DNA from: Hericium rajendrae
Lineage: Eukaryota > Basidiomycota > Agaricomycetes > Russulales > Hericiaceae
Direction of reading: 5' to 3'
NCBI GenBank assembly: GCA_033439255.1
Contig: CM065878.1
Coordinates: forward strand, 4,960,001-5,024,000
DNA: 64,000 nucleotides
Shown here: in pieces, positions 42,068-63,625 of the stretch
Position numbering within the stretch: position 1 is the first letter of the stretch
Layout of the letters: each line of letters opens with the position of its first letter
Position numbers and translations under genes: made by a program
The notes under the pieces: generated by a model
The model's input: the letters and a program-made list of their open reading frames with translations, nothing else
What the model was told of the DNA's origin: nothing
The model's database searches: none

Positions 42068-42075
42068 TTTTTATA
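42068..42075 (-). promoter_or_regulatory. TATA box of AA9 copy 4
   Basis: TATAAAAA on the minus strand, about 90 bp upstream of the ATG. The three other copies have unrelated sequence (around CACACAATGGCC) at the same place. Confidence 0.6.
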
Positions 42076-42125
42076 CAACATGGCTGCAGACAACGCGGTA
42101 AGGGACTGTGCGCCTCGAGGCTAAC

Positions 42126-45160: not shown

Positions 45161-45168
45161 CTTGCGAT

Positions 45169-45176
45169 CATAAAAG
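45169..45176 (+). promoter_or_regulatory. TATA-like box of X1
   Basis: CATAAAAG, about 55 bp before the start of the leader intron and 160 bp before the ATG. X6 has CATATAAG at the same place. Confidence 0.5.
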
Positions 45177-45332
45177 CTTGCAATGAGTGAGGGGGACCGC
45201 CCTCCACAAGTTACCTACATCGTATCTTCCGTGAGTTTTGACCACACGGGACGACCACCTTCGCTCATTGCGTTTGTTCACAGACGTCAGTTTCATACCT
45301 CCGGAGTCCATCGAAATTGTTAATTCGCAGTC

Positions 45333-45914
45333 ATGTCGTACTCTTCGAACTCCTTCACATCAAATGGTGCCTCCGGTCAATCTGGTCGTCATATCATCTC
45401 ACCGCAGGCTATTCAGTCTGCGATCTCAACGCATCGTGAGCGGACAATCTATTATGCATGCGGCGGAGTCTATTCACACCTTTTCTTGATAGAGCATAAA
45501 TCTACTCGGATTGGTGAGGGCATTCGCACATCTGCATTTCATTCATTCATTCAGAGCCTAGACAAGGTCGCCCGTGGTGACAAACTTGCTGAAGCTCATA
45601 TGGAGCTCCAAGTCGCGACAGACGCATTTACCAGAGGGCAAATGACATGGGCTGAATTTGATATCGTGCTAAGGCGCGTCAACGATTTTGGCCGTGCCCA
45701 CGACAGGCACCTCGCTGATTATCTCGCACGGGAGCAAGCTGGGAAGACGAAGCGTGGTGACTTGTACAAAGAGTTCTATGGGTACACCGATGAAGAGGCG
45801 GAGGATTACCTTCGTCAAAGAGACAGGTGGTTAGAGATCGAAAGGGCTAATGAAGCGCGTAGCCAGTCTCGCATGCTATATCGTGACCAGGGCAGGCATG
45901 GACGAGGCCACTGA
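45333..45914 (+). CDS. X1, small protein of unrecognised family
   Basis: Exons are 45,333-45,435, 45,493-45,513 (a 21-nt microexon) and 45,562-45,914, giving 158 aa. Another intron (45,231-45,283) lies in the leader. The N-terminal 35 residues are Ser/Asn/Gly-rich (MSYSSNSFTSNGAS) and end in the conserved QAIQSAISTH. The rest is charged and probably helical, with YLAREQAGKTK, LYKEFYGYTDEEAEDYL and a C-terminal ARSQSR..RHGRGH. There is no signal peptide or membrane segment. It converges on Y1 with 105 bp between stops. I do not recognise the family. Conservation of exon structure and protein over six copies shows it is a real gene. Confidence 0.8.
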   Translation: MSYSSNSFTSNGASGQSGRHIISPQAIQSAISTHRERTIYYACGGVYSHLFLIEHKSTRIGEGIRTSAFHSFIQSLDKVARGDKLAEAHMELQVATDAFTRGQMTWAEFDIVLRRVNDFGRAHDRHLADYLAREQAGKTKRGDLYKEFYGYTDEEAEDYLRQRDRWLEIERANEARSQSRMLYRDQGRHGRGH

Positions 45915-46019
45915 CCGCATCCTCCTGCCTGCAGTACAAGTTCCATTTAGCGAAGCTTGTTATTATCGAGCGAGTATGTAAGATATTGAATACATATCGG
46001 ACATTCCCGACGATACGAA

Positions 46020-47266
46020 TTACGGGTTTCGGTATTGCCAAGCCTGTCCCCTTTCAAAATCTCTGATTTTGTTGTCCTTTTCGACGAGACTGCATTCTTG
46101 ATCTTCTACTTTCTGCACCAGCGCAAAATTTTCACTTCGAAGAAGAAAATTCTGGTTCGTGAGTTGGGCAATTCGCAGTTGTGATTGCTTATTCTCCTCA
46201 GCGCAGGCAACCTGGGCGGAGTGGCTCTGACTGAGTTCATTCTCGAGCCGCCCAATGCGGGCGCTTTGCTCGTCAATATGTATGATGGCTGCGGAAGCTA
46301 TGAGCCTTGGGCATCATGCCATCCACGGACGGACGCACCTCGTCTGATATGCTTGACCGACGGGGCCTCATATACCTGCAAATGGCTAGGGAGCCTTTCA
46401 GCGAGCTCCGCGGTGGCTTCAGTCCTGTCCTTCCTGTGGCCCTTGACTCTTAACGCTTCCTTCTTCTTGAACAGTAGCGCTTCGGCATCACTTGTCGACG
46501 GAGATGATGCGCGGTCCTTGCGCTTCGCACCGACCTTAGGAGACTGCGGCACAGCTTCGGCGTGTGCGTTGCCTCCGATTGGAAGCCTCATTCTTCCCGT
46601 CATGCTGGTCATTTTCGCTTTGTGGGAAGGGGTTTCATCGCCTGGTCGACTGTGAGATGAAGTCCGCTGAGAACCTGAGGCCATCCGTGTTTTCGATGGT
46701 GGAACCTTTGCTTGAAGAGCGAGTTGACTGCTGCTTGAAGAGGCGTTGGCGGTAGCACGTGGCTGAGTGGAGTTCGAGCTGTATCTGACCGATGATTGCG
46801 CGGAGTGATCATAGTAGGCCGACGAAGACCAATCAGTAGGGGTATTTGGGAATGATATGCCGGTCTGCGGATCTGGTCTGACAGGACGTCACTTATCTCG
46901 ATAAATGAGATACACCGCCTTGTTCTCACTGGTTATTAGCCGAGTATAGACTATTAGGGTGCTGATAGTTTGACGAGGCGCCAGCCATGTCGGTATAAAG
47001 TGAGGATTCAGCTGTTTGCGTGTAGTTTGTATATCCAGCTTGCGTTGTACTTCGGAGCATCGTGAGTTACGCTGCGCCCACGGCCGAGTGGAAGGTCCAT
47101 CTACTTACTAAGGATAATATGCATTCGTTGTCGCATTCGTCGAGGATGTGCGTGCATAGTCGTACTGAATACCCTGTGCTTGTTCGGCGCCAGCGCTGAA
47201 CTGAGCAGAGCTAAGACTGATGGGAGACCACCTTCGGGACGGTCCAGGTGTAGACGAGTGATGCAT
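46020..47266 (-). CDS. Y1, bHLH/coiled-coil protein
   Basis: Probable DNA-binding regulator. Exons on the minus strand are 47266-47109, 47049-46931, 46877-46341 and 46288-46020, giving 360 aa. The N-terminal two thirds are low-complexity (Ser, Gln, Tyr, Pro), with SRRWSPISLSSAQFSAGAEQ. A basic stretch (KRKDR, FKKKEALRVKGHRKDR) leads into helix 1 (TEATAELAERLPSHL), a loop, and helix 2 (VKHIRRAIIHIDEQ), which runs into a heptad-like coiled coil to the stop. This is the layout of bHLH-zipper proteins, and the helix 1/helix 2 boundary is split by an intron in all copies. The assignment comes from motif pattern only; sequence similarity to known bHLH families is weak by eye. Confidence 0.75.
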
Positions 47267-47333
47267 GTCGGTCGTAAATCGTGCAAGTGAGACGTAAAGG
47301 AATAGTTACCAAGGTTCATTGCAGGTATTGGCT

Positions 47334-47341
47334 ACTTTATA
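47334..47341 (-). promoter_or_regulatory. TATA box of Y1
   Basis: TATAAAGT on the minus strand, 68 bp upstream of the Y1 ATG. The same box and spacing class occurs for all five Y genes. Just beyond it lies a conserved CTTGTCGA(A/G)GA(T/C)GAT element. Confidence 0.65.
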
Positions 47342-47359
47342 CGCGAGTGACATCGTCTT

Positions 47360-48374
47360 CGACAAGATGTCTGGCCGTAGATTGCACAAGCCAGCTCTGG
47401 AAACAAGGTTGTCAGCCAGTACAACGGATGATAAGACTTGACGACGGGCTGAGCAAGTACGGACCTTACAAGGACTGCCTAGAGAATCAAAATGTCAGCT
47501 AAGACAAGGATAAGAGTCCTATTCCCGACGAAGAAACTCTCGCGTCAAATAGCATACCACAGAATGAGCTGTAGCTGTAGCTTTGGGAACTAGGTAATTG
47601 GCCTGAATTGAGTATGCATTCCTGAGAGTGACAGAGCGAAAAAGTATATAAAGGCATTGTCTTTCCAGATCTGGTACAACACCGGCGCTCATATAATACG
47701 TACATCGAGCTGTACCTTGTATTCAGTTCAGTCTCCGGTGCGAGAGCTAGCTCTTCAGCTCGCCTTCTCCAGACTGAGAGTACGGTCATAGATTGTTCGT
47801 CAAGTTCGCGAAAGACCTGCTGGCGGAAAACAAGGGTTACAAACGGTCATCATACTTCGGCCTCGCCATCTATCTGGGGATGATTGCTTCCACACTCTCG
47901 GCATATCTGCTGTGAAAGGACACCAGCAGAGGACTCACGACTTAAACATCGAAAGTTCTGAGCAGTCGACTGGTTTATAAAGTTGATGTAGACGTTCGTG
48001 GCGGGGGGTTGGATCATGGAAGGCTGGACGATGACATTGCAACCAGTAGCGGAGAAGTGGAGAAGAGCTAATCTTCGAAGCTGGAGAACGAATCTGCGCG
48101 GAGCTGTACCCAGAACAAGGGCCTGATTCGACACGATTGTGGGAGTCGGAAGGAAGTGCAGAGGCGGTGAGTCACAAGAAAGGAAATTGTTAAGATCGGA
48201 GGCCGTTGCCAAACAAACGCCTGGTGGACCGAAGTTCGAATTTAAAAGTCGAAGATTCCGAGAACAAGGAGATGCCACAGTGAAACATACAAAGAAACGT
48301 CGAACACCATCTTTGCTGAAAAAGGATGGGAGTGCTGACGGTACGAGACGAAGAGATGGAATGCGATGCTACAC
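47360..48374. other. Spacer between Y1 and tRNA-Asn
   Basis: A short plus-strand coding-like block (LDDGLSKYGPYKDCLENQ, about 47,430-47,490) recurs upstream of all Y genes (YGAHKDYLENQ at 51,235; YGPNKDYLDDM at 56,775; YGHYKGFLENQ at 59,995; YGPYKDCLENQ at 63,820). It may be a leftover exon or conserved promoter DNA. The word GGAGGCCGTTGCCAAACAA (near 48,199) also occurs at 44,577 and 61,000. No intact gene seen. Confidence 0.35.
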
Positions 48375-48464
48375 TGCCCCAGAGAGACTCGAACTCTCGA
48401 CCTACCGATTTAAGGTCACGTGATAGTAACAGTCGGACGCTGTAACCAACTCAGCCATGGGGCA
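48375..48464 (-). tRNA. tRNA-Asn (GTT) with a 17-nt intron
   Basis: On the minus strand the acceptor stem TGCCCCA/TGGGGCA, D stem GCTG/CAGC, T arm GAGAG-TTCGAGT-CTCTC and anticodon arm TCCGA-CTGTTAA-TCGGT fit a 73-nt mature tRNA once 17 nt (CTATCACGTGACCTTAA) are removed after position 37. The anticodon loop CTGTTAA and the flanking CATGGCTGAGTTGGTTA are typical of eukaryotic tRNA-Asn. The top pair of the anticodon stem is a T-T mismatch. Confidence 0.88.
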
Positions 48465-49113
48465 GGTTGTCGATCTTACACAATTTTAGTTTCAGTCTAC
48501 CAGTGATCATCACTGACTTTATCCACTTTCTGTGACATTGGTTTGAGGAACAATAGCATGGACATATCCACCTCTTCTCGCGAATCCTATTTCTCCAACG
48601 GTCCTTCCACGGCGACCTGAAACTGGAGCCAGGCGGCAAGTCCCCGTAAGTCCCACGTTGACAATAAGTCTAGCAGTCTCAGGTCTCGGCGGTCTGTAGC
48701 GTTGTACGCGCTGCTATGGTCCACCATACTTTCCGTGATCTCACAGCTTTGCCATTCCCAATTGTCTTGCTCTTACAGAGCTGCTGCCATCACGACGGCC
48801 TCTAAATTTAAAGTTCGTCAGCCCTCTTATCAGCTTATTGTCATAGATTAAGTATGTCGCGTTCAAGTAATCCCATCTCTATGCGGCAACGACGTCGATT
48901 CCATTGCTGACATACCATGTCGCCATAGCATATGCACATACGCATGCTTGGCAACAAGCAATGCGGAGCAACAACAAAAAGAGAGGGACAATTAATTTTG
49001 GCGCTTTCTGACACTCGAGTGCTCTCATCGGTCTGGCCTGTAAGGATATAGGTGAGCCATGAATCGTGAACGTCCGCGTCATCTCCGATTACTTTGCTCG
49101 ACCCCGTTTTCCC
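48465..49113. other. X2 upstream region
   Basis: Contains diverged copies of the W-fragment DNA (EAVVMAAAL near 48,785 on the minus strand) and the conserved block with CATATG at 48,929-48,934. No clear TATA box is seen for X2. No intact gene. Confidence 0.35.
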
Positions 49114-49218
49114 GTGAGTTCTGTCTGTATGACACGACTAGCTTCGCTTATTACCTGCTCTTCTGACAGATATTCATCTTACGCCTTCCAAGTCGATTGA
49201 CCACACGTGCACATAATC

Positions 49219-49795
49219 ATGTCATACCCCTCGCAATCCTTGACATCGAATAGCGTCGCCTCCGGCCACTCAGATCGCCATATTGTCCCACCGCAGGCCA
49301 TTCAGTCTGCGATTACGACCCATCGTGAGCCGAAATTCTATCGGGCATGTGATGGGCTTTACTTATGCCTCCTTCGATAGAACAAAGGTCTTCTCAGATG
49401 GGTGAGAACGTTCTCATGTCGATATCGCTTTATTCATATGGGAAGTAGGCCAGGTTGCTCGTGGGGACGAGATTCTCGCGCTCAATATCCAGCTCGAAGC
49501 CGCCGGAGCTGCATTTTTCAGCGGAAAGATGAGCAAGGCCGAGTTCGATGCCATAATGAAGCACATTAATGATGCTAGCCGTGACTTCCATCGGTGCTAT
49601 GTAGACTACCGAGCACGAGAACAGGCGGGGCAGACTCGACCCGTCGACTGGTTCAAGGAGTTCTATGGATACACAGAGGAAGAGGCGGAGGAGCACCTTC
49701 GGGAAGATCTCAGAATGAGAGACATCCAAAATGCTAACCAGGCACGCGGACAATCTCGCATATTGCAACAGAGCCGACACGGACGCGGCTATTGA
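49219..49795 (+). CDS. X2, small protein of unrecognised family
   Basis: Exons are 49,219-49,324, 49,381-49,401 (21 nt) and 49,449-49,795, giving 157 aa. The leader intron is about 49,114-49,169. It has MSYPSQSLTSNSVASG, QAIQSAITTH, YRAREQAGQTR, DWFKEFYGYTEEEAEEHL and ARGQSRILQQSRHGRGY. The DWFKEFYG..(T)EEEA core and the QQSRHGRG tail are the best-conserved parts of the family. It converges on Y2, with stops 103 bp apart. Confidence 0.8.
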
Positions 49796-49898
49796 TCATA
49801 TATTCCTGGTTACAATCCAGACAAAGGCTGTACAGCTGAATTCCATTGAGCTAGCGATATATCTAGAAGTGCGAAGTCGCAAGTATATATGATACGAA

Positions 49899-51055
49899 TT
49901 ACACCTGTCGGTACTGTTTCCATATTTGCAGCTCCAGCTCTAATTCGCCAATCCTCTTATTCATTCGGGCCAACTCCTGTGCATTCCTTAGCCTCTCACT
50001 CTGCAATTCATGGATTTGGTGTTGAGACGCAATATTTTCACGCGCAGCCTGAAAGTGGGATGCTCTAAGTTGAGCGGCCTCGTTCTCAAGCTCATCAATG
50101 TGAATGATCGCTGTGCATGCAATCAGAATTGAAGTTATCTCGACCAAGGATAAGTATACTCACCTTGTCTGATATTGGCCACAGTCGGCTTGTCCTCGAA
50201 TAGTTGCAAATGCTGGGGGAGCCTCGTAGCCAGGTCGGCAACGTCGCGACTCAATTTGTCCCTGTGCTTCTTGGCTTTCTCCGCGCGATCAGACTTTTGC
50301 ACCCCCTCGGACGTCCCCGCGCCCGTCGCAGCAGGCTTTGCCTTCTTGTTTGTCGGCGCCTCAGCAGCGCTGTTCATTTCTGTCGGAGACGGCGCGCGGT
50401 CCTTGCGCTTCAGCTCACCGACTGCGAAAAGCTGAGATGGGGCCTGGGCCGGTGCATTGCTTCCGAGCCGCCACCTGCCCATCTTGCTGTTCATGTCCGG
50501 ATTGCTGTCTTTAGGACGGCGGGATGTGGACGCAATCGGCTTGGCGGGTTTGCTTCGTTTCTCGGACGATGCATGACTTATGCTAGCTGCAGATTGTCTG
50601 GTGCTTGTAGAGGCGGTGGCAGCAGCATATTGGTCGGCCGAGCTTGAGCTATAGTTGGTGGATGATTGTCCAGAAGGACCGTGGCAGGACGATTTGGGCC
50701 ATTCGGCTGGAGCGCTTTGGTACGAGGCACCGGTCTGCTGGTATGGTCTAGCGAGACGTCAGCCTCGTATATCCATCAAGGAGGTGTTTTTTTCAAACTT
50801 ACTGGACATTGGTATCGTTTGCATATCCAGCTTGCGTCGTGCTTCAAAGAGTTGTCAGTTAGTTTACACCCACGGCCAAGGACAAGATTCTGCTTACTAT
50901 GGATAGTATGCATTCGTGGTCGCAGTCGTCATGAATGTGTGTGCATAGTCGTGTTGTGAAACCCGTGATTGTTCAACGCCAGGGCCGAACATAGTAGGGT
51001 CAAGACTGGCAGGAGACCGTCTTCGAGACGGTCCAGGCGTAGATGGGTGTTGCAT
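49899..51055 (-). CDS. Y2, bHLH/coiled-coil protein
   Basis: Same layout as Y1. The start is at 51,055 (MQHPSTPGPSRRRSPASLDP). The last intron ends at about 50,116, and its donor follows ANIRQ near 50,155. The basic/helix 1 part reads AKKHRDKLSRDVADLATRLP, the loop QHLQLFEDKPT, and helix 2 VANIRQAIIHIDELENEAAQ, followed by a leucine-bearing coiled coil ending LELELQIWKQYRQV. This copy shows the bHLH pattern most clearly. TATAAAGT lies 67 bp upstream of the ATG (51,122-51,129). Confidence 0.78.
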
Positions 51056-51121
51056 GTCTGTCGTTAGTCGTAGCAATGAGACGTAAGGGAATAGTTACTG
51101 GCCCCATTGCAGGTCCTGAAT

Positions 51122-51129
51122 ACTTTATA
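51122..51129 (-). promoter_or_regulatory. TATA box of Y2
   Basis: TATAAAGT on the minus strand at the conserved distance from the Y ATG. Confidence 0.6.
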
Positions 51130-51139
51130 CGCTGGGACC

Positions 51140-52780
51140 ATCGTCTTCGACAAGACGTCTGACCATAGATAGCACAAGTCAGTTCGTAAAACAAGGGCGT
51201 CAGGACAACAGATCTTGACGACGGGCTGAGCACGTACGGAGCTCACAAGGATTACCTAGAGAATCAAATGTAAGCCCAAAAAATGCAGACACGAATCTAC
51301 TTGCTTTCGTGGCCCGGAGAACTTGTCATAGCGAAAAATAGCAATTCTTGTATCGATCTACTGAAGACAATTCCTCTGTTCTGAGGATCCATAAGTAAAT
51401 CACTAGCTATGTTATTGCCCTGAAACAGATGCACATCCTTGTGAGCACCGAAAGACGAGAACAAGAGCAGAGTCACAGTCCGATTCGAGCACAAAACGCT
51501 ACTAGTAGAGCGCTCACTGCAAGGACACATACGCAAACCTGTACCGTATGACGTACAATCGTCGCATCTCTTTGAATTTCCCTTTTCCGGATCCACAAGC
51601 TATCGTCGATTGGTTAGTTTGGTGGTGGTCGCAGTTATGAACAAGAAAGTCTCCGTCGTCTCTGAACCGAACGGCAAACGCGGCTACAGAAGGTCGGCAA
51701 TTTCCGGCACCGGCATAGCGGCCTTCCTCGGAGGCTTTGTGCTGGCAACCGCCTACTTACTCTCATGTACCAACGTCCCTTGCTCTTCCGAAGCAGCTTT
51801 TGCTATATCTCAAGCTTGAAATATACTCGTGCTGAACTCCTGTTTAGCTGTGCTCCAACTTTTTGCATATTCTTTGTCGATGGATTGCGTGCGATGAACT
51901 CGATCTCAGGATCTTTCACAGCCGTGGTCAGTCTACTCATCTTCACCACGACGGGACGTGATAGTGGATCTCTCTTCAATGCGTGAGTGGCTTGTCTTCC
52001 TGCCTTGACAGATCGTAAACTGCGCAATCAACCTCTGGACTCTATGACTTCGAGATTCATGACCACCGCGACACGTCTTTTTGGCAAATTGGATTGTGTC
52101 CTCTTCCTGCTCAAAGTTTACTTGGCTCGACCCAGCCGGGTCGCAAATCGCCGCCAAGACGTCGGGTGAAGATATAGCAATGGTGTGTTGCAAGTTTGGC
52201 TTTGACCGCGATGCGTATCTGCTTCTCCTGCTACGCGCCCGCATCCTTTGCTTAGGTCCATGGTCGCCGCATGCGCCGCGCAAAGCTACGTCATCACTGT
52301 GAAATCAGTGACTTGCCTTGCAACACGAAGACGAGATCATTTTCGTCGACATCGCGCGAAGTTGGCTGATGCTAGTCACAGCGAACTGGCTGGCCGCTTG
52401 TCCCCCTTCTCCTCACCTTGCTTGCGCGCCCCCTGCTGTTACTCTCGGAGCTCTCATCATGATCATTCTCGCATTCCTCGCTCATGTACAAGCCATAGAA
52501 GATGATCCGACAGTCCAATTGTCTTGTCCCCTCCACCTTTGGCTATCGCCTCTACGTTTCAGCGCCAGTCTTATTGTTGGATGCGGTCGGAGTCGCGTTC
52601 CACCTGTTGCTCCTGTCTGCGCACCGCAATATGGATGCTTCGATTGGTATGCCGTCATCTGCACGTACCCGTAGTCGGTTGCGACGATACGGTACGGCGA
52701 AGAAATCGAAACAATTAGCTTCGATGCTTGGTAGTCTCAGTGTGCCTTTGCCGGTCCCTTTGCCGGTCTCTCATTCGATG
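51140..52780. other. Spacer between Y2 and X3
   Basis: The left part (to about 51,545) is homologous to the DNA upstream of other Y genes (for example 56,840-57,070). The rest is specific to this interval. A 69-codon frame at 51,610-51,819 has a hydrophobic stretch (GIAAFLGGFVLATAYLLSC), but nothing supports it as a gene. No other candidate seen. Confidence 0.35.
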
Positions 52781-52788
52781 ATATAAAT
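52781..52788 (+). promoter_or_regulatory. TATA-like box of X3
   Basis: ATATAAAT, about 66 bp before the leader-intron donor at 52,847. Confidence 0.45.
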
Positions 52789-52918
52789 CAAGCATGATCC
52801 CTGAGTTTCGTCCTCAACGTTGGAGTCGCTGAAACAATATTTCTTCGTGAGTTTTTACCACATGAGACAGTTGCCTTCATTCACTAAGTGCTCTGCCTCG
52901 AAGTCGGTTGAAAGCACT

Positions 52919-53493
52919 ATGTCGTACTCCTCGAACCCCTCGACATCGAATGGCGTTGCACCAGGCCAATCAGGCCATCATGTCATCTCACCGCAGGCCA
53001 TTCAGTCTGCCATCTCAACACACCGTAAGTCGACTGTCGACCAGACGTATCGAGCTTGTACTAACACCTTCTGATAGAATACAATTCTGCTCAGATCGGT
53101 GAGACGACCTTCGTTTCGACTTCAGTTTTATTAATACAGACTTCAGAGATGATTGCTCCCGGTAATGAGCTTATTCAACTTCGGATTGATTTGGACGCGG
53201 CCTACAGTGCATACGTTGGCGGGCAAATGAGCGTAGCCGAGTATAAGGCCGTGCGAGACCGTCTTGTACAAGTTGGCCGTGACCTCAATAAGCGTCGCAC
53301 GGATTACTTCGCACGGGAGCGGGCTGGCCAGACTAAACCCATCGACTGGTTTAAAGACTATTACGGGTGCACAGAAGAAGAGGCGCAGAAACGCCTGGAC
53401 GAAGGAAATAGGTTGATAGATATCCAGAACGCGAACAGGGCTCGCAGCCAATCTCGGCTGCTGCAACAGAGCAGGCCCCCATGTGGCCATTGA
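52919..53493 (+). CDS. X3, small protein without a Y partner
   Basis: Exons are 52,919-53,024, 53,078-53,098 (21 nt) and 53,147-53,493, giving 157 aa. It has MSYSSNPSTSNGVAPGQSG, QAIQSAISTH, YFARERAGQTKPIDWFKDYY, GCTEEEAQKRL and ARSQSRLLQQSRPPCGH. The protein is intact, but the C-terminal HGRG is replaced by PPCGH. Unlike the other five, no Y gene or recognisable remnant follows. From about 53,930 the DNA already matches the upstream region of the next unit. Confidence 0.8.
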
Positions 53494-54460
53494 CCATATA
53501 CATTACAAAACTTACCTCATCTCGTAACGCAGTTCGTGGCTTTACTGGCTTGGCCGCCGGTGAACTAGTACTTGGTCATTGTATGGCGAGCTTTCTGGGC
53601 AGCGGAGAAGCAGCACTGTTCCCGTCTGACTGCATAAGAGACCCTGTATAGATTTTCGATCGTCCACTGGGTTTTGTCTCGTCTCGAGGTTGACTAGTTC
53701 GCGGTGCATTGTAGCCGTTCTGTATCAGTGAAAGGGATCACACAATGCATAGTGACAGTGGGTTGACCTGCAGTAAGACCTGGAGACGTATTGCATGCAT
53801 GGCTTTACAGTCGAAGAACTAGAGCTTGTGAATGCACATAGACGACTGCTGGATTGGTACTAATCGAGGTGTCGGGCGCCGCACGCGGCGTGCTGAGGCA
53901 AAAGGACGCTGGATGCGTGTGCAGAAACTTGAAAGCTATGAGCCAGGCGCCCAGTAGGCGCCCGCGTCTTGAGCGGTCGGCAAGTTCCGGCCTACCAGCT
54001 GAGCGACTTCTACAGGCCCTTCCTTCCAGATCTCCACGACGCATGTCCAGTATTGTAACGTCCTCTCAGCATATTTTTCGGACAAGTCGTTGATGGCATT
54101 TGCGGTGTTGTACCGCATTGTGCATACTGACAAATGACTGGTGACTCTTTTTGTGGCCTGATTGATCGTACGTCCTGTCATGCTTCTAATTGTTTTGCTC
54201 ACTTCCAGCGGCCGTCATAACGACAAGGATTCAAATTTCTCTTTGGTCAGCGCAGTTTGAAGCTTATTGTTAGACGCAGGTGAGATACGGGTGATACCCC
54301 TGCGTCTATTTGGCATAGCTGCTACCTCTGCCGCGTGCCACGTCGCCATGGCATGCACGTACACGGTACTCGGCGTTAGAGAGCGACGCGAAGACAAAAG
54401 GTGATAAACAATTGACCTCGACGCTTGCTGAGACTTGAGTTCTCTCGTCCCATCTGCGAG
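53494..54460 (-). pseudogene. Spacer with W-like coding fragment upstream of X4
   Basis: The minus frame 54,202-53,936 reads ATKRVTSHLSVCTMRYNTAN ... VEVAQLVGRNLPTAQDAGAY. The homologous stretch near 57,215-57,400 keeps VEVAKLVSREMPTVQNTGAW but is interrupted. A donor-like GTGAGC preceded by VVMTAAG (near 54,215-54,235) would be its upstream exon. It resembles part of a host gene decayed in most units; its family is unknown. The rest of the stretch holds nothing I recognise. Confidence 0.35.
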
Positions 54461-54468
54461 TATATAAG
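54461..54468 (+). promoter_or_regulatory. TATA box of X4
   Basis: TATATAAG, 64 bp before the leader-intron end of exon 0 and 180 bp before the ATG. Confidence 0.55.
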
Positions 54469-54527
54469 CTGCCGACAAGTCCTGAGTACTGTTAAGTATC
54501 AGTATCCGAATTACCCATACCGCATTT

Positions 54528-54552
54528 TCTCGTGAGTCTTGAACACACGAGA
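54528..54552 (+). promoter_or_regulatory. Hairpin over the 5' splice site of the X4 leader intron
   Basis: TCTCGTG (54,528-54,534) contains the donor of the leader intron (54,532-54,591) and pairs perfectly with CACGAGA (54,546-54,552). In X1 (45,227-45,251) and X6 (61,654-61,678) the arms are TTCCGTG and CACGGGA, so one C-G pair is replaced by T-A while pairing is kept. Confidence 0.5.
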
Positions 54553-54640
54553 CAGCTGCTTTTACTCACTGATGTTTTTTTTCGGTTCTAGAAACACATC
54601 TGACGCTTTCGAGATCGACTCCACCCACCAGGTTATAACT

Positions 54641-55222
54641 ATGTCTTATCCCTCGAACTCTTCGACATCGAGTGGCATGGCTCCAGGCCAATCAGGCCAT
54701 TACAATGTTCCACCCCACGCCATTCAATCTGCCATCTCAACGCATCGTAAGTCGACAATTTGATGCATTTATTGGAAGCTATACTGATTAGCTTGGTCTC
54801 ATAGAACACAAATCCGCCCACGTTGGTGAGTCAATCCTCGTATTTTATTACGTTTTTTTTTAATCCAGACTCCAGAGACGGTCCCTCAAGATGATGAACT
54901 TACTCGGCTTCGGATCGAATGGGACGCCATCTACGAGGCTTTTATCAACGGGCAGATGAGCGATGCTGAGCATGTTGCCGCGCAAAAACGTATCATGGAC
55001 GCCAATGCTGCCTTGACCAGGCGCCGGACGGACTACAATGCACGGCGACGAGCTGGAAAGACTAAGCCCGGCGACTTTTTCAAGGAGTTTCATGGGTGCA
55101 CAGATGAAGAGGCGCAGGAATGTATTCGTCATGTCCGGAACTTGGCTGACATTAAAAGGGCCAATGAAGCACGCAGCCGAGTTCGCGTATTACAACAGAG
55201 TAGATATGGGCGAAGCGGATGA
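54641..55222 (+). CDS. X4, small protein of unrecognised family
   Basis: Exons are 54,641-54,746, 54,805-54,825 (21 nt) and 54,876-55,222, giving 157 aa. It has MSYPSNSSTSSGMAPGQSG, HAIQSAISTH, YNARRRAGKTKPGDFFKEF, HGCTDEEAQECI and ARSRVRVLQQSRYGRSG. The core tryptophan of DWFKEF is phenylalanine here. It converges on Y3, with stops 95 bp apart. Confidence 0.8.
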
Positions 55223-55317
55223 CCGCACAATCTTGCTCATATCCTATGTAATGGCCTTGTCTGTAGTAGAGCTTTGGCGACAAAGCGAGATCATAATTGA
55301 GAGTCTGAGATTCGTTT

Positions 55318-56559
55318 CTATACACGTTGATAATACCCATATCGCCACGTCTGCAGTTCCCTCTCCAGTTCTCCAATTCTTACATTCCTTTCCTCAAGAT
55401 TGCATCCCAGCGCATGGACTTCTGCTTCTTTTTCAAAATTTAGATGTCCGATGCGTTGTATTTCCCGTTTGCAGGCACTGTAAGCTATTTTCAATTGAGC
55501 AGCCTCGTCCTTAAGCCGCGCAATCTCGCCATTCTGCTCATCGATGTAGGCTGCCGCTGGACATGCAATCAGCATTGAAGTCATCTCAATAACGGGAATA
55601 CGCACCTTGTACAATGTTCTCCTTCGATGACATGTTCCCAGGCGCTAGCAAATGGCTGGGAAGCTTCCCAGCGAGTTTCGCAATGTCACTATTCAGCTTG
55701 TCCCTAGCCTTTTGGGCTCTCACTCTTCCCGCTTCCTGTTTCTTCGCCTCCTTCTCCGGGGGCACTCCGGCGCGGATCGATTCTGGCGTCGGTGAGCGTT
55801 CCTTGCGCTTCTCGCCAATCGCGGAAGGCTTCGGCTGGTACGTTAGTGGGTCCGCAACTGGGATCGTTGACGCCATGTCTGTGTCACGGAACCTGTTCAT
55901 CTTGCTCTTCATGTCTGGAATGGCGCCTTTCCTTGGGCGCGATGTGGACGCAGTCGGCATAGAAGCCTTGGTCCGTGTCTTTGATGATGCAGGGTTGGCA
56001 CTGGCTGCATGTTGACTGCTGCTGGAAGAGGCGGCGGCCGCGGCGTGCTGGTGGGTTGAGCCCAAGCCGAGTGATGTTTGCACCGAGGGATCGTAGTAGG
56101 AAGGTTGAGACCAGTCTGTTGGAACGCTGTGATACTGTACGCCGGTCTGCTGGTATAATCTAGCGAGACATCAGTCATGTTATCAATAGATCACGTTGCT
56201 TGAAACTTACTTCGTATTATTAGAGTTTGCATTAAAGTCCTGGTAGCTTTGAGAAGATTGTGTCGCTTGGGTATAGTAAGTAGGTTCGGCCGATTGGAGA
56301 GGATATGAGTATCTGGTCTGCATTGTACTGGATGGCGCCAAGAGTTACGACGTGTCCGCAGCCAAGGACAAATTTCGACTCACGATTGGTACTGTCCGTT
56401 TGGTGTCGCCGTCGTCATAGAATTGTACGTGGGGTCATATGGCCAACCCTGTGTTTGACCAGCGCCAGCGCTGAACTGAGCAGGATCGAGAATGGTGGGA
56501 GACCTCCTCCGGGACGAAGGTCGGGATAGTCCATGGTCAGCAGGATATGAATGCTGCAT
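55318..56559 (-). CDS. Y3, bHLH/coiled-coil protein
   Basis: Exons on the minus strand are 56559-56384, 56312-56211, 56159-55606 and 55556-55318, giving 356 aa. The N terminus MQHSYPADHGLSRPSSRRR is followed by SPTILDPAQFSAGAGQTQGW. The middle is Ser/Ala/His-rich. The basic/helix 1 region is VRAQKARDKLNSDIAKLAGK-LPSHL, helix 2 is KENIVQAAAYIDEQ, then a long coiled coil (NGEIARLKDEAAQLK ... IGELERELQTW). There is no signal peptide, and KRKER and other basic clusters suit nuclear location. It is a probable transcription factor, with dimerisation through the coiled coil inferred. Confidence 0.78.
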
Positions 56560-56643
56560 GTGTCGGTCGTTAGTCGTGTAAACTTAGGAACGAGACGTAA
56601 GATGTTGAGTTGAATGGTTAGCAGAACGTACTGGGTCCTGGCG

Positions 56644-56651
56644 ACTTTATA
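56644..56651 (-). promoter_or_regulatory. TATA box of Y3
   Basis: TATAAAGT on the minus strand, 85 bp upstream of the Y3 ATG. Confidence 0.6.
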
Positions 56652-56659
56652 TGATAGCA

Positions 56660-57722
56660 ACATCATCTTCGACAAGTCGTCCAACCATAGAAGGTACAAA
56701 CTAACCTGGGAGACAAGGTCGTCGATGAGTACAATGAACAGCGGCTTGACGACAGGCTGCGCATGTACGGACCTAACAAGGATTACCTAGATGATATGAA
56801 GGTAAGCTAACAAATGCTAATTCGAATATCTGCTCACATTCGTGGTCCCAGAGGTTACCTACGACGAAGTACAGTAATTTCCATAGCCTGCGTCCAGCCA
56901 CAGAAAACATAATTGCCATCTTGGAGCTAAGTACTTGCTCGAATCAACGAGACAGCTAGCTCGTGTCGAGTTGTCTATCTTGCCCGCGCCTCTGTGAGCA
57001 GTAGAGGACAAGAACAAGGCCATCATCACAGACCCAATTCGAGTACAAAACTCTCCTATTGATAAGCACGTTTAGAGCGTACCTTATATTGATATATCAG
57101 TTCTGGCTAGACTTTTAGACTTCCATTGCATTAGCTATGATGAACGATACTGTACTTCATCGAAAGTTGTCGCTGAAATGAAACGATGCATTGGCAAAGG
57201 AACAACTTTCGGTTGGCCAGGCGCCCGTGTTCTGAACGGTCGGCATTTCCCGGCTTACCAGCTTAGCGACTTCAACAAACGAGGCCCAACTTCAAATCTC
57301 CACTTCGCACCTCCACTGGTCTTCTAACTTGGTATCGCATCTTGGTAGTGCCAGCCGTCGATGAAATGTGCGGTGGTGCGTGGCTCTGTGCACACTCCAA
57401 ATGACTGCTAGCCTTTTTTGTGGCCTAATCGATCGTACGTCCTGGCATACTTCTTATTGTTTTGCTCACTCCCAGCGGCAGCCATAACGACGGCCGTGAA
57501 GTCTGCCCTTGCATTTTGGATAACACTTATTGTTACGGACGCAGGTGAGATGCGCCGCACCTTCTGTGTGGCAATATCGTGGTTGCTACCGCTCACGCAT
57601 GCCATGTCGCCATGACATGTGCACGGTCTTTGTCAAGCGAAATGGACTCGACAAAAGGAGTGAGAAACAATTAACTACGAGTTTGTTGATACCAATCGAC
57701 CTTCGCTGTCCTCAATTATGAG
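56660..57722. other. Spacer between Y3 and X5
   Basis: It holds the plus-strand YGPNKDYLDDM block (about 56,740-56,800), the interrupted W-like fragment (57,215-57,540, minus) and CATGTG at 57,616-57,621 in the conserved X upstream block. No intact gene seen. Confidence 0.35.
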
Positions 57723-57730
57723 CATATAAC
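57723..57730 (+). promoter_or_regulatory. TATA-like box of X5
   Basis: CATATAAC, about 60 bp before the leader-intron donor at 57,786. Confidence 0.5.
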
Positions 57731-57875
57731 GCAGCCATGCGATCTGACTGCGGTGCTCAATCAATTCTCTGTATCGTACTTTCCCGTGAGTTTTGACCGC
57801 ACGAGACGTCCACCTTCATTCATCACGCCTTCTGCACACAGAACATCAAGTCATTTGGGATCTCCGCACGTCTCC

Positions 57876-58426
57876 ATGTCGTCTGCGCCGAACTCACATC
57901 GTGTTAGCTCCGGCCATTCAGGCCATTACATCGTTTCTCCCCAGACCATCCATTCTGCCATCTCAACGCATCGTAAGTCGGCATCGAATTGGCCGTGTAT
58001 ATGCAATTTTACTGATGTTTTGGTCTGGTAGAGTGGCAGCAATCCTCAGATCGGCACTGTCCATCGGTCGTCCAGACCCTAGGGGTCGCTCGCAGTAACG
58101 AGCTTGTCGAATGCCGGAATGAGATGCAAACCGCCCTCGACGCATTTCTCAATGGGCAGATAAGCAGGGCAGAATTTGACATTGTGCTCAAGCGGGTTGG
58201 GGATGCTGGCCGCGACTACGATCGGCGCATAGCGGATTACGACGCAAGGAAACAAGCTGGACAGGCCAAGCCCAGCGACTGGTTTAAGGAGTTTCACGGG
58301 CTTACAGATGAAGAGGCAAAGCAGCATCTGCATCAAGGAGGCAGATTGATGGATATTCGAACAGCCAACGAGGAACGCAGCAGTTCTCGCATTGCACAAC
58401 AGAGCAGGCATGGTCGGGGCTATTGA
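57876..58426 (+). CDS. X5, small protein with merged exons
   Basis: Exons are 57,876-57,972 and 58,032-58,426, giving 163 aa. The leader intron is 57,786-57,841. The second coding intron of the family is not spliceable here: the usual GTGAG is GCACT, and the frame reads straight through (SDRHCPSVVQTLGV), adding residues after the former microexon. Conserved parts are GQ-like SSGHSGHYIVSPQTIHSAIS, YDARKQAGQAKPSDWFKEFH, LTDEEAKQHL and QQSRHGRGY. It converges on Y4, with stops 120 bp apart. Confidence 0.78.
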
Positions 58427-58546
58427 TTGTGCAGTCTAGCTACAATGTAGAGTATCGTATTCATTCCCAGTCACTGGATATTGTTGCCATCGAGATAGCA
58501 AGGCATTATTAAGGAATGAGAGGTTCGCAGATTTACTCGGTTTAAG

Positions 58547-59774
58547 TCACGGGTTCGGATATTTCCACGACTGCCTCCCCTCTAATTCTCTAATTCTGCC
58601 GTCTTTCTCAGTGAGACGGTCTCGTTGCAGTTCGTTCTCGTTCCTCAACGCCTGGTTCCTGATTCGAAGATCAAAGATCTCCACCTCGTGACGGGCCTGT
58701 GTCGCTTTCAGCTGATCAGCCTCGGAATGGCTCCGACTGACCTCGTCCTCGAGTCTCCCGATGCGGGTGTTCTGCTCATCAATGTATATGACCGCTACAA
58801 ATGGAATCAGCCTTGACGCATCTCCATCAAAGACGTATACGTACCATTCGCAACGTTTTTGTTCGACGGCTTGTCCTTATGATACCGCAAATGAAGCGGG
58901 AGCCTGTCAGTGAGCTTAGCGACGTCCTCGCTCAACTCAGCCCTGCCGTTCCTGGATCTCTCTGCTGATCTGGCCTTTTTCTTCGTCACGAATTCGGCTT
59001 CTCTAGTCGCGTCTGGAGGAGACGACGCGCGGACCTTGCGCTTCAACTCGCCGACTGCAAAAAGCTGAGACGAGGCCTGCGCAGGTGCGTCCTTTCCGAG
59101 CCGCCATCTGCCCATCTTGCTGTCCATGTCCGGGTTGCTATCTTTTGGACGGCGGGATGTGGAAGCAGTTGGCTTAGAGGCCTTGGTTCGCTTCTTCTCT
59201 GATGATGCAGGATTTGCGCTAGGTACAGCTTGACTGGTACTTGAAGAGGCGGCGACAGCATGCTGGGGTGCCGACTCCGTGTTGTAATTGTTCGAAGGTC
59301 GCGCCAAAGGATCATAGTACAAAGATGAATTCCAGTCGGCCGTCGGAGTACTCTGATATGATGTGCCAGTCTGCTGGTATGATCTAGCGAGACATTAATA
59401 AATCTATCAGCAAAGTATGTTGCTTTGAACTTACTGCGTATTAATGAGATATGCATTATCGTTCTGGTAGTTCGTTGAGGATGTGAGCATTTGGGTATGG
59501 TATGAGGATTCAGCAGATTGCGAGTAGTACGGTTATCCATCGTGCACTGCCCTTTACGTCGCCGGGTAAGCTGCGTCTAGGATCAAATATAACATTCAGC
59601 TTACGAGCGATGATATTCATTCATTGTTGCCGTCGCTGTAGACATGTGTGGGCCGTAGGCCCAACCCTGTGGTTGAGCAGCACCAGCACTGAACTCGGCA
59701 GAGTCAAGGTTGGTAGGAGATCTCCGAGACGAAGGTCAGGATGGTCCATAAGCTGACTGGTATGGATGCTGCAT
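58547..59774 (-). CDS. Y4, bHLH/coiled-coil protein
   Basis: The start is at 59,774 (MQHPYQSAYGPS) and the stop at 58,547. The final intron lies between KNVAN (donor near 58,846) and AVIYIDEQ. The basic/helix 1 region is ERSRNGRAELSEDVAKLTDR-LPLHL, and helix 2 is NKNVANAVIYIDEQNTRIGR, followed by a coiled coil ending RELEGRQSWKYPNP. The N-terminal part keeps SPTNLDSAEFSAGAAQPQGW. The architecture is the same as Y1-Y3. TATAAAGT is at 59,869-59,876, 95 bp upstream. Confidence 0.77.
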
Positions 59775-59868
59775 GTCGGTCGTTAGTCGTAAGATTGAGA
59801 CGTAAGACGCTAGGATGAAACGTGAGATGTAAAGATGGATATTTAGCGGTACATCCTGGATTTTCGCG

Positions 59869-59876
59869 ACTTTATA
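59869..59876 (-). promoter_or_regulatory. TATA box of Y4
   Basis: TATAAAGT on the minus strand at the conserved position relative to the Y ATG. Confidence 0.6.
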
Positions 59877-59889
59877 TGATAGTACCATC

Positions 59890-60552
59890 ATCCTCGACAG
59901 GTCGTTCGTCCATAGATGGTACAAGCAAGTTGAGGAGACAAGATCATTAGCAAGTACAATGGACAACATGACTTGACGACGGGCTGAGCAGCTACGGACA
60001 CTACAAGGGTTTCCTAGAAAATCAAATTACAGTATAAGCTTGAAGACACGGATGTGTATATCTTCGTATTAGCTGTCGAAACTGCTGATGATCATAGTCA
60101 AGAAATACCGACATCACTCGCATGGCCTACCACTACGACGCATCAGTCTATTTTCCAGGTGCAATACTACCGGAGAAATGCTAAACGGTCTGCTTGCATG
60201 GGGCGAGCGTTCCTGTGACCCGGAGAACAAGGACGTTATCGTAGCCCTAATTCGAGCACAAGTCACTTCTAGAGACACGCAAGTGAAGACCGCACCTTGT
60301 CAATATCCGAAAGCATCCTGTCCAACGCGATTGTATCCTCGCTATCAAACCTGCGACATATGCCTATTGCTTCGTCTGCGCTGCAGCTCGATGTCGTGGA
60401 GGTCATTGACGAAGACAGGCGCCTGCATTTTGATCAACAAAATTCGGCAGTTTCCGAGCTCAGCGAGAGACGCTCGACTCCAGTGCGGGCAGATGGTGCA
60501 TTGACGAATTGGCGGTGCCGTGATCATGAGCGCTTGACTGAGCCGAGGATGG
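59890..60552. other. Spacer between Y4 and the hAT-like element
   Basis: It contains the LDDGLSSYGHYKGFLENQ block near 59,970-60,030 and, from about 60,470, DNA homologous to 44,490-44,560, the left edge of the X1/Y1 unit. No intact gene seen. Confidence 0.35.
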
Positions 60553-60560
60553 GAATTGTT

Positions 60561-60987
60561 CAGACTTTACGGCTTCCAGAACCGTCCACCTCTTCCCACG
60601 GTCTGGACTGTCCCGACCGTCCCAACCGTCCCAACCGTCCCGGTCGGCTTGGACAGGTTGGACAGTCTGGACAGTTGCCTTATTTGAACACCTCTTCGAG
60701 TTGTCCACCACGCAGTCCCTTTTTGCGCTCACACCGGTTGGGGTTGGGATGGGATGGGTTGGCGGTTGGGTTGGCGGTTGGGTTGGAGGTTGGGTTGGTT
60801 GGGTTGGCGGGTATATTGATGATTTTCGAGGGATGTGAGATATTGAGTTTGGGTTAGGGCTGGACAGTCGGGACTGTCCCGACCGTCCCAACCGTCCCAA
60901 CCGTCCACAATTGAATGGCTTACTTAAGCATTTCGGGACGGTTGGACGATTGGACTGTTGGGACGGTTCCAGTTCCCGAAAACCCTC
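60561..60987. mobile_element. 427-bp hAT-like non-autonomous element
   Basis: It interrupts DNA that is continuous in the homologous unit at about 44,560. GAATTGTT is duplicated exactly at both ends (60,553-60,560 and 60,988-60,995), an 8-bp target duplication typical of hAT elements. The ends are imperfect inverted repeats over about 27 bp, sharing AACCGTCC. The inside is made of GGACGGTTGG/CCAACCGTCC-type repeats in both orientations and a GGTTGGGTT minisatellite (about 60,727-60,813). No transposase is encoded. Confidence 0.75.
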
Positions 60988-60995
60988 GAATTGTT

Positions 60996-61590
60996 TGGAT
61001 TGGAGGCCGTTGCCAAACAACCGCTCCGCTTGCAAACGAGCGCCCGTTCACTTTCTCCAGAATCTTACCCAGCGCTTTCGAGCTCTTGTCTACCATGTCT
61101 TCATTTCTCTGTATGCGGATTTGGTTTAGAACTGTCGCGTAGCAATGCCAAGGTGCGATACTGCTTAGGCCCGCAATTCGTCTACGGCCACTTGGCGCTG
61201 TCCTACATCAACAATAAGTAGTGCACGCTCCTAGCCTATCTGCGGCGATCTGCAGCCTGTGCATTGCTTTTATACCGGAAGACCGGTCGAAATACTCCGC
61301 GTGGTACGATTATCTTTTCTTTCCTAATTGTTTTGCACTCTGTAGACTGCCGTCATCACGACGGTCTCCAACGTTCACTCCCACTCAAGCTTATTGTTAC
61401 AGATGCAGGTGACAGCATCTCCCTGCTCAATTATCTGCGGCAACACTATGGTTGCTACCTCTGGTATGCCACGTCGCTATAGCATATGCACGTATGCGTA
61501 TTTGTAGCAAGCGGCACGGAGGCAACAAAAAGGTGAAGAACAATTACCTTCGATGCCTGTTCCACTACTGTGCTCGGCTTAGTCTCTTCT
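60996..61590 (-). pseudogene. Conserved W fragment upstream of X6
   Basis: Homologous to 44,570-45,165. The minus strand keeps ATVLNQIRIQRNEDMVDKSS and GKILEKVNGRSFASG. CATATG at 61,483-61,488 lies in the conserved X upstream block. The fragment is separated from its former left part by the hAT-like insertion. Confidence 0.35.
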
Positions 61591-61595
61591 GCGAT

Positions 61596-61603
61596 CATAT
61601 AAG
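61596..61603 (+). promoter_or_regulatory. TATA box of X6
   Basis: CATATAAG, about 60 bp before the leader-intron donor at 61,658. Confidence 0.55.
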
Positions 61604-61759
61604 CTTGCAATGAGTGAGGGGGACCGCCCTCCACAAGTTACCTACATCGCATCTTCCGTGAGTTTTGACCACACGGGACGGCCACCTTTGCTCATTGCGT
61701 TTGTTCACAGACGTCAGTTTTCCACCTCTGGAGTCCATTGAAATCGTTAATTCGCAGTC

Positions 61760-62338
61760 ATGTCGTACTCTTTGAACTCCTTCACATCAAGTGGTGCCTC
61801 CGATCAATCTGGCCATTATATCGTCCCTGCCCAGGCTATACAGTCAGCCATCTCAACGCATCGTGAGTGGGCAATCCATGGGGCCTGGGGTGGATTTACT
61901 GATGTAACGACCTGATAGAGCAAAATTCCGCTTGGATCCGTGAGAGCATCCCCGTGTCAGCATAGCTATCTATTCACTCAGACTCTAGAAAAGGTCCCTC
62001 CCCGTGATGAGCTTGAGAACCGCGATTATGAGTGGCGTGCGGCTTCAGCTGCGTATCATAGCGGAAAGATGAGCCATGCCGAGTACAGTGCGGTGCGAAA
62101 GCGCATCCTGGACGCGGACCGCGCCTACGACAGGCGGGTAGAGGACTATCTAGTCCGAAGGGAGGCCGGGCAGACGAAGCCCGGTGAGTTCTTTCGAGAG
62201 TTCTATGGTTGTACGGATGAGGAGGCGCAGGAGTGGCATCGTGACGAAGTCAACGCGGTGAAGATACGGAATGCCAATTTTGAAGCTCACAGCCAATCTC
62301 GGGTTGCACAACAGAGCAGGCATGGGCGGGGCCACTGA
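61760..62338 (+). CDS. X6, small protein of unrecognised family
   Basis: Exons are 61,760-61,862, 61,919-61,939 (21 nt) and 61,989-62,338, giving 157 aa. The leader intron is 61,658-61,710. It has MSYSLNSFTSSGASDQSGHY, QAIQSAISTH, YLVRREAGQTKPGEFFREFY, GCTDEEAQEWH and QSRVAQQSRHGRGH. Upstream DNA is close to that of X1, so X6/Y5 and X1/Y1 are the youngest duplicates. It converges on Y5, with stops 103 bp apart. Confidence 0.8.
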
Positions 62339-62441
62339 TTCCGTCATTTTGCCTATCATGAATTAATATATAGTCTCAGATCTTGTACTATACACGATGA
62401 CCATCAAAGTTTGGGTATCAACGTCGCTAGAGCTTTTCCTC

Positions 62442-63625
62442 TCAGGGTCTTGTGTGCCTTTCATCGAGGCCATACCATTGACCTCCATTGACACGCAGCA
62501 GCTCTCGATTCTGCCGCCGAAGCACAGAATTGTCCGTCCTTAGAGAGTCTATTTCTTGGTCGGAGGCGAACTGCGCCGCTCTCGCCTGGCCAGCTTCGTC
62601 CTCGAGCCGCTGAATCCGGGCGCTCTGTTCATCGATATGGACAATCGCTGCACACGCTATGAGCTCTAGGCCTCATCTTATGGACAGGCGTGCGCACCTT
62701 GTCTGATATGCTTCACTGATGGAGCCTCATATACCTGGAGATGGTTAGGGAGTCTTTTAGCGAGCTCCGCGATAGCTTCAGTCCTGTCCTTCCTGTGGCC
62801 CTTGACTCTTAACGCTTCCTTCTTCTTGAACAGCAGCGCTTCGGCATCACTTGTCGACGGAGACGATGCGCGGTCCTTGCGCTTCGCACCGACTTTAGGA
62901 GACTGAGGCACGGCTTCGGCGCGTGCGTTGCCTCCGATTGGAAGCCTCATTCTACCTATCATACTTGTCATGTTCGCTTTGTGGGAAGAGGTGCCGTCGG
63001 CTGGTCTACTGTGAAATGAAGTGCGCTGAGAACCTGGGGCTGTCCGTGTCTTCGATGGTACAAGTTTTGCTTTTGGAGCAAGCTGACTGCTGCTTGAAGA
63101 GGCGCGGGTGGTAGCATGTGGCTGATTTGAGTTCTGGCTGTATCTGACCGACGGCTGTGCGGAGTGATCATTGTAGGCCGACAAAGGCCAGTCGGGTGGA
63201 GTACTTTGAAACGATGCGCTGATCTGTTGGTCTGGTCTGGCGGGACGTCAGTCGTGTCGATAAATGAGATAGGCCGCTGTGGACTCACTGATTATTAGCA
63301 GGGTATAGACTATGAGGATACTGATAGCTTGACGAGGTACCAGCCGTGTGGGTATAAAGTGAGGATTCAGTCGTTTGCGTGTAGTTCGTATATTCAGCTT
63401 GCGTTGTACTTCGAAGCGTCGTGAGTTACGCTGCGCCCACGGCCGAGTGAAAGGTCCAACTACTTACTAAGGATAATATGCATTTGTTGTCGCATTCGTC
63501 GAAGACGTGCGTGCATAGTCGTATTGAATGCCCTGTGCTTGTTCGGCGCCAGCGCTGAACTGAGCAGAGCTAAGACAGGTGGGAGACCATCTTCGAGACG
63601 GTCCAGGCGTAGACGAGCGGTGCAT
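62442..63625 (-). CDS. Y5, bHLH/coiled-coil protein
   Basis: Closest relative of Y1. The start is at 63,625 and the stop at 62,442. The basic/helix 1 part (FKKKEALRVKGHRKDRTEAI, AELAKRLPNHL) is nearly unchanged from Y1, and helix 2 reads VKHIRQAIVHIDEQ. The coiled coil is shorter and diverged (SARIQRLEDEAGQARAAQFA, ending GLDERHTRP). The fast-changing C terminus next to a conserved bHLH core suggests divergence in partner choice (inference). TATAAAGT lies at 63,693-63,700. Confidence 0.76.

Follow-up and report, generated by a model that had tools for sequence, protein, structure and literature searches.

A tandem array of convergent gene pairs in Hericium rajendrae and the divergent centre of two of its units

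When two genes stand side by side in unit after unit of a tandem array, it may be asked whether they act together or have merely been copied together. This question is raised by a locus of the basidiomycete Hericium rajendrae (assembly GCA_033439255.1, contig CM065878.1), which was analysed within a stretch of 64,000 nucleotides (positions 4,960,001 to 5,024,000 of the forward strand), referred to below as the window. The array spans window positions 45,333, the start of gene X1, to 63,625, the start of gene Y5. It comprises six copies of a gene for a small protein, X, on the forward strand and five copies of a second gene, Y, on the reverse strand, X and Y being placed tail to tail in five units. 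Units are numbered after their X gene: Y1 belongs to unit 1, Y2 to unit 2, Y3 to unit 4, Y4 to unit 5, and Y5 to unit 6, and unit 3 consists of X only. All X and Y gene models were reconstructed manually, with GT-AG introns and reading frames as the guide. The evidence that bears most directly on the question comes from the comparison of units 1 and 6.

The centre of units 1 and 6

Judged by their outer sequences, units 1 and 6 are recent duplicates. On the X side, they are 92% identical in 762 sites upstream of X and 86% identical in X exon 1, after which identity falls to 63% in X intron 1 and 61% in X exon 3. It remains low through the middle of the unit (41% in the intergenic gap, 58% in the last Y exon, and 68% in Y intron C) and rises again on the Y side, with 86% in exon C, 77% in intron B, 88% in exon B, 92% in exon A, and 93% both in intron A and upstream of the gene. 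A three-segment model of this comparison places the breaks at 45441 and 46335 and gives identities of 0.91, 0.59, and 0.89 for the three segments. Its gain in log-likelihood is 167; when blocks of 30 columns were shuffled 500 times, the gain never exceeded 63.7. The breaks, which are best point estimates, fall within 6 bp of the edge of X exon 1 (45435) and of the edge of Y exon C (46339). The block between them, referred to here as the centre, covers the facing ends of both genes. On the X side it takes in almost the entire gene, and on the Y side the half presumed to serve dimerisation.

The low identity of the centre does not merely reflect faster protein change. Because silent sites and introns diverge as well, the centre is taken to be older than the flanks. 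The proportion of differing silent sites (pS) is 0.24 in X exon 1 and 0.26 in Y exons A-C, which belong to the flanks, and 0.61 in X exons 2-3 and 0.69 in Y exon D, which belong to the centre. A comparison of all units points the same way. In each segment of the flanks, no two units are more alike than 1 and 6, with identities of 0.956 in the X promoter (the only pair whose X promoters are clearly alike, the others reaching 0.52-0.59), 0.864 in X exon 1, 0.922 at the end of Y exon C, 0.908 in Y exons A-B, and 0.926 upstream of Y. Nowhere in the centre do they hold this first place; there they rank seventh of 15 pairs in X intron 1, sixth of 15 in the last X exon, sixth of 10 in the gap, and second of 10 in both Y exon D and Y intron C. 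By these ranks, the X part of the centre dates from roughly the time when the units as a whole diverged, and the flanks are much younger; the Y part is possibly a little younger than the X part. In segment trees, units 1 and 6 split off with a bootstrap of 100 in the Y upstream region, in Y exons A-B, and in Y exon C. The tree of Y exon D contains a different split at a bootstrap of 85, and that of X exons 2-3 is an unresolved star. The strong signal of an old centre therefore stands for a single event or process, observed on one occasion.

Across the whole array, conservation is highest in X exon 1 and in the Y upstream region. Divergence is strong in X exons 2-3, in the gap, and in the last Y exon, which encodes the second helix and the coiled coil of the bHLH-Zip-like layout described below. 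The proteins encoded by X exons 2-3 are 42-53% identical in all 15 pairs, which makes the X centres about equidistant. An additional stretch of 69% similarity lies upstream of X4 and X5. A mosaic origin of units 2, 4, and 5 was considered and rejected, the trees of their Y segments being free of significant conflict among these units. The insert in the left flank of unit 6 (Table 1) also has internal repeats of the GGTTGGGGTTG type and is presumably similar to a hAT-type miniature inverted-repeat transposable element. It probably postdates the duplication, since only unit 6 carries it.

Table 1. Window positions of the genes and segments discussed in the text
Feature	Positions	Strand	Exons or remarks
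Divergent centre, unit 1	45441..46335		X intron 1 to inner edge of Y exon C
Divergent centre, unit 6	61868..62694		counterpart of 45441-46335
Left flank, unit 1	44494..45435		common with unit 6 60485-61862, the latter carrying the insert
Insert in unit 6 left flank	60561..60987		427 bp, 8-bp target repeat GAATTGTT, not in unit 1
Y1 upstream region	47267..47638		93% identical to Y5 upstream region
X1	45333..45914	+	45333-45435, 45493-45513, 45562-45914; 158 aa
Y1 (unit 1)	46020..47266	-	47266-47109, 47049-46930, 46877-46339, 46288-46020; 361 aa
X2	49219..49795	+	49219-49324, 49381-49401, 49449-49795; 157 aa
Y2 (unit 2)	49899..51055	-	51055-50898, 50841-50803, 50747-50164, 50110-49899; 330 aa
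X3, solitary	52919..53493	+	52919-53024, 53078-53098, 53147-53493; 157 aa
X4	54641..55222	+	54641-54746, 54805-54825, 54876-55222; 157 aa
Y3 (unit 4)	55318..56559	-	56559-56384, 56327-56211, 56159-55606, 55556-55318; 361 aa
X5	57876..58426	+	57876-57972, 58032-58426; 163 aa
Y4 (unit 5)	58547..59774	-	59774-59605, 59551-59435, 59383-58845, 58794-58547
X6	61760..62338	+	61760-61862, 61919-61939, 61989-62338; 157 aa
Y5 (unit 6)	62442..63625	-	63625-63468, 63408-63289, 63236-62698, 62647-62442; 340 aa

Gene structure, selection, and the two proteins

The original prediction for this locus, made by a model from the letters of the window, held that five X/Y pairs keep the same order, orientation, and exon pattern, with 95-120 bp between their stop codons. 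Order, strands, and spacing are borne out, the gaps calculated from the gene coordinates being 105, 103, 95, 120, and 103 bp. The exon pattern is kept only in part: X5 is without intron 2, the stretch being read through in frame, and Y4 contains two in-frame stops. The units follow one another at intervals of 3.2-3.9 kb, shortened to 1.7 kb at the unit that has no Y, and all are in one orientation. After GT-AG splicing, the reading frame is open in all six X genes (157-163 amino acids), whose introns lie at matching places, and in four of the five Y genes (330-361 amino acids); introns of both genes measure 47-59 nt. In the best splice model found for Y4, the stops lie in exons A and B, the first of them independent of the choice of acceptor, and the last two exons are open; only a shortened product, begun at an in-frame ATG past both stops, would be possible. 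No Y partner of X3 was detected at 53,494-54,640 by tblastn with the five Y proteins. Given the gap of 95-120 bp, the 3' untranslated regions of X and Y are likely to overlap. An intron in the 5' untranslated region of X is likely as well, a GTGAGT...AG stretch having been read by eye ahead of the X start codons.

The ratio of nonsynonymous to synonymous rates (omega, or dN/dS; Nei-Gojobori method, own script) is 0.15-0.39 in 14 of the 15 X pairs, the fifteenth being saturated, and 0.30-0.44 in all ten Y pairs, the stop codons of Y4 being excluded. As dS exceeds 1 in most X and Y pairs, these values are rough. X and Y are nevertheless argued to be functional, because their frames and splice sites have been kept. 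To judge by these patterns of substitution, both are real coding genes under purifying selection. The prediction had spoken of gene pairs whose proteins have diverged and had named a dN/dS near 1 among the X copies as the contrary result; the values for X lie well below that figure. Conservation is strongest in X at the N-terminus, where the first 34 residues have a mean proportion of nonsynonymous differences (pN) of 0.175, against 0.322 for the remainder. With X exon 1, splice sites, frames, and Y upstream sequence conserved despite near-saturated silent sites in most pairs, the array stands above what chance would produce.

The regions upstream of Y are 0.60-0.71 identical in the nine pairs other than 1-6 and contain several invariant blocks. 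The element TATAAAGT and the block TCCGTA..TGC.CAGCC.GTCGTCAAG are present in all five units. Further blocks (e.g., within 47267-47560) include TCGTCAAG and C.TGTCGA, the latter reading CTTGTCGA in four of the five units and being one base short of its own inverted copy. These shared blocks suggest a common control of the Y genes.

The statement that X matches no known family was upheld against Pfam, NCBIfam, and the sequences and folds of the PDB. All six X proteins gave only noise-level values in Pfam, as they did in NCBIfam, a bacterial and archaeal library, and an X profile met a single PDB sequence, at E 0.24. The same profile yielded 56 pattern matches in viral contigs, with no relative among them. 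The last exon of X, of 114-115 amino acids, was modelled from X2 and from X6, each aligned with the other five X. The model of X2 contains helices at residues 4-23, 29-58, 64-72, and 76-109, and that of X6 is nearly identical. The mean predicted local distance difference test (pLDDT) values are 87.7 (X2) and 87.5 (X6), and the predicted template modelling (pTM) scores 0.64 and 0.62. A Foldseek search of PDB folds with the X2 model returned 139 matches at E <= 10, the best at 0.86, with TM-scores by query length of at most 0.47 among the best 50 of the 139. According to these models, X is an orphan four-helix protein.

The relationship of Y to basic helix-loop-helix leucine zipper (bHLH-Zip) proteins is less clear-cut. 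Going by composition and inspection, its N-terminal ~200 residues look disordered. A basic stretch follows, then a first helix with LPxHL at its end. Beyond a loop comes a second helix with a coiled coil, led by an IDE motif; an intron falls at the start of this second helix. In a PDB profile search with the five Y domains, the bHLH-Zip domain of Myc ranked first at E 0.1, aligned in register over the whole domain, and USF2 was among the 16 matches at E 0.85. A reversed decoy of the Y alignment gave 14 matches, none of them bHLH, the best being a DNA primase at E 0.039; because the decoy scored better, the score of the Myc match proves nothing. In Pfam at E <= 10, the HLH family, whose profile is taken here to be PF00010, matched neither the Y2 domain nor stood among the best 25 of the 28 families for the five Y domains, in searches whose HMMER filters discard most weak matches. 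The four whole Y proteins matched no Pfam family, HLH included, and PDB sequence searches with Y gave sub-threshold matches only. At the position of the Myc glutamate that serves recognition of the E-box, Y2 and Y3 have A, Y1 and Y5 have V, and Y4 has S, provided that the alignment with Myc is correct. A simple heptad scan showed a peak near 103 degrees in one of the five Y proteins. The earlier description of Y as bHLH-like is thus weakly supported as regards the layout, and family membership is not borne out, with the HLH match missing, the decoy ahead, and the glutamate apparently replaced. The data weakly favour calling Y bHLH-Zip-like by layout and no further.

Recognition, chance conversion, and other explanations

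The original prediction argued that a pair kept together through repeated duplication has a joint function. By itself this is no evidence, since tandem duplication copies both genes, and unit 3 is without Y. A joint function of X and Y is better argued from the divergent centre, because in units 1 and 6 it spans both genes. On this basis, the array may be read, tentatively and with less than even confidence, as a series of tandem paralogous recognition pairs whose centres serve as identity tags. In such a system, X, as a small helical partner, would bind the coiled coil of Y, and the products of one centre would fit only certain partners. The centres would then mark self and non-self, most simply in mating or somatic compatibility, and the N-terminal part of Y would perform a common downstream task, probably in the nucleus. 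Recombination or gene conversion in the similar flanks would move or preserve the centre as one cassette; such exchange between units is proposed because no other account explains so economically why younger flanks enclose an older block. The more specific form of this idea is rather doubtful: a new type of recognition locus, built of convergent pairs of an orphan four-helix partner and a factor with a coiled coil, probably nuclear. The specificity of both partners would be set by one centre cassette, kept or swapped between units by recombination in the similar flanks.

The proposed cassette function derives from a single pair of units, and chance gene conversion is rated somewhat higher than recognition. 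This explanation, which comes close to an even chance, holds that the array arose through ordinary tandem expansion by unequal exchange and that a later, accidental ectopic conversion either replaced the centre of unit 1 or 6 by a tract of ~0.85 kb from another diverged unit or homogenised the flanks. The position of the tract would be meaningless, and X and Y need not act jointly. The units are tandem and in one orientation, a single pair shows the pattern, and purifying selection operates throughout; the absence of Y in unit 3 and the damaged Y4 resemble normal birth and death of genes. Several further observations speak against recognition. A neutral tract would look identical. In the other nine pairs, the centre is below both flanks in eight, though by small margins, and divergence at the end of Y exon C (identity 0.48-0.54) equals that of the centre, leaving no sharp edge; the pattern is thus clear in units 1 and 6 alone. 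Even there, identity in Y exon D is somewhat above the mean of the pairs (0.587, the mean being 0.498), the sister placement of the two units in this exon is not rejected (approximately unbiased test, p 0.22), and the tree of the short X exon 1 groups them at a bootstrap of only 48. Within the centre, pN/pS is below 1 (X: 0.41-0.59). The distances between X centres and between Y centres are uncorrelated (Mantel r -0.08, with 66 of 120 permutations as high), in a comparison to which near-equal distances leave little power. Against a random tract stand two findings: the window contains no recent donor, the centre segments of unit 6 being at most 0.70 identical to any other unit, and the best breaks, each no more than 6 bp from an exon edge, enclose the ends at which the two genes face each other, which a random tract need not do. 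Should chance conversion be correct, the locus would still present an orphan gene family with an unusually clear footprint of recombination.

It is unlikely, though worth weighing, that Y is a divergent bHLH-Zip regulator and X its small helical co-regulator or inhibitor, the array being a dosage or condition-specific set with no part in recognition. The order of basic stretch, helix, loop, helix, and coiled coil, the presence of Myc and USF2 among the 16 PDB matches, and the invariant upstream blocks of all five units would suit such a set; the lack of a Pfam HLH match in all five Y domains and the better score of the decoy do not, and the old centre in young flanks would be left unexplained. 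A killer/antidote or other conflict pair, in which X and Y match in order to neutralise each other, could account for the joint divergence of the facing segments in units 1 and 6, for the loss of a gene from unit 3, and for the damage to one in unit 5. It is very improbable, as unit 3 keeps X without Y, the Y of unit 5 is damaged, and neither Pfam (X, Y) nor the PDB folds (X) contain a match pointing to such a role. Least credible of all is an assembly artefact, by which units 1 and 6 would be two haplotypes of one unit joined in tandem. The nearby AA9 region does repeat at 99.3% over 17 kb, possibly as a haplotype duplication. However, units 1 and 6 are unlike each other to the left of the shared flank (before 44494 and 60485, respectively), the flank of unit 6 begins ~0.7 kb beyond the start of Y4 and so continues the array, and a flank identity of 91-93% seems, as a matter of judgement, low for alleles. 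If it were an artefact, the centre would differ between alleles, and the case for recognition would gain. A transposon origin of the units was set aside on inspection, the units being tandem and in the same orientation.

Comparable systems and the surrounding sequence

By analogy with known systems, the array could be a compatibility locus. The HD1/HD2 pairs of Agaricomycetes (PMC8305134, PMC12193891) resemble the X/Y pairs in that linked partners lie on opposite strands, several pairs may be present per locus, and the specificity parts are strongly diverged. Their heterodimerisation is attributed to the N-terminal specificity domain (PMC8305134, PMC12193891). In contrast, HD pairs are divergent, with their N-termini facing each other, whereas X and Y are convergent in all five units, with C-terminal parts facing. 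No homeodomain family was found at E <= 1 in Pfam searches of the six X and four Y proteins.

A similar logic of shared outer and specific middle parts is found in the mat locus of Tetrahymena thermophila (MTA/MTB), a tandem array of six gene pairs with common outer exons and type-specific middles (PMC3608545). That system belongs to a ciliate, is arranged head to head, has transmembrane exons, and consists in the germline of mostly incomplete pairs that are joined by programmed rearrangement (PMC3608545). The X/Y array, in contrast, is arranged tail to tail, with six X and four of five Y genes complete, and has no Pfam match (no search was aimed at membrane segments). The het genes of fungi, which serve allorecognition, offer further parallels (PMC11138114, PMC1805685): in Aspergillus fumigatus, old polymorphism is confined to several hundred bases around the coding sequence, and in Podospora, het-d and het-e belong to a family of paralogues that exchange repeat units. 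The specificity of het-d and het-e resides in WD repeats, which X and Y lack, and het divergence is allelic, whereas here it is found between paralogues of one genome.

If the recognition reading is true, the array would add a further architecture beside HD1/HD2 and Tetrahymena mat, in which the matching parts of linked partners are adjacent, here at the 3' ends of the genes, and recombination takes place around them. It would also put forward two specific genes as candidates for distinguishing self from non-self in basidiomycetes, whose mechanisms of somatic incompatibility were called completely unknown in 2021 (PMC8229728). Among the open-licence literature searched, judged by title and the start of the abstract, no convergent pair like X/Y is announced, which is no proof of novelty. 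The available text of a paper on the bHLH family of a mushroom (PMC11855202) says nothing of tandem bHLH copies.

Within the array, a tRNA-Ser gene lies at 48373-48465 on the reverse strand, between units 1 and 2. The ~1.5 kb from unit 2 to X3 (51297-52800) has no blastn similarity elsewhere in the window except for 66 columns at 56993-57058, and a 118-aa frame within it has no Pfam match. The part of the window at positions 1-44000 holds four genes for AA9 lytic polysaccharide monooxygenases on the reverse strand (~3.0-4.2, 15.8-16.9, 28.0-29.1, and 40.8-41.9 kb), AA9 being matched by five of the ten stretches submitted to family search. Positions 1-17049 and 25018-42098 are 99.3% identical over 17,086 columns, which points either to a tandem duplication of 25 kb or to a duplicate created in assembly. 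Between the AA9 genes, at 6212-7965, 18934-21842, and 31242-32994, lie tandem repeats whose units measure ~250-262 bp.

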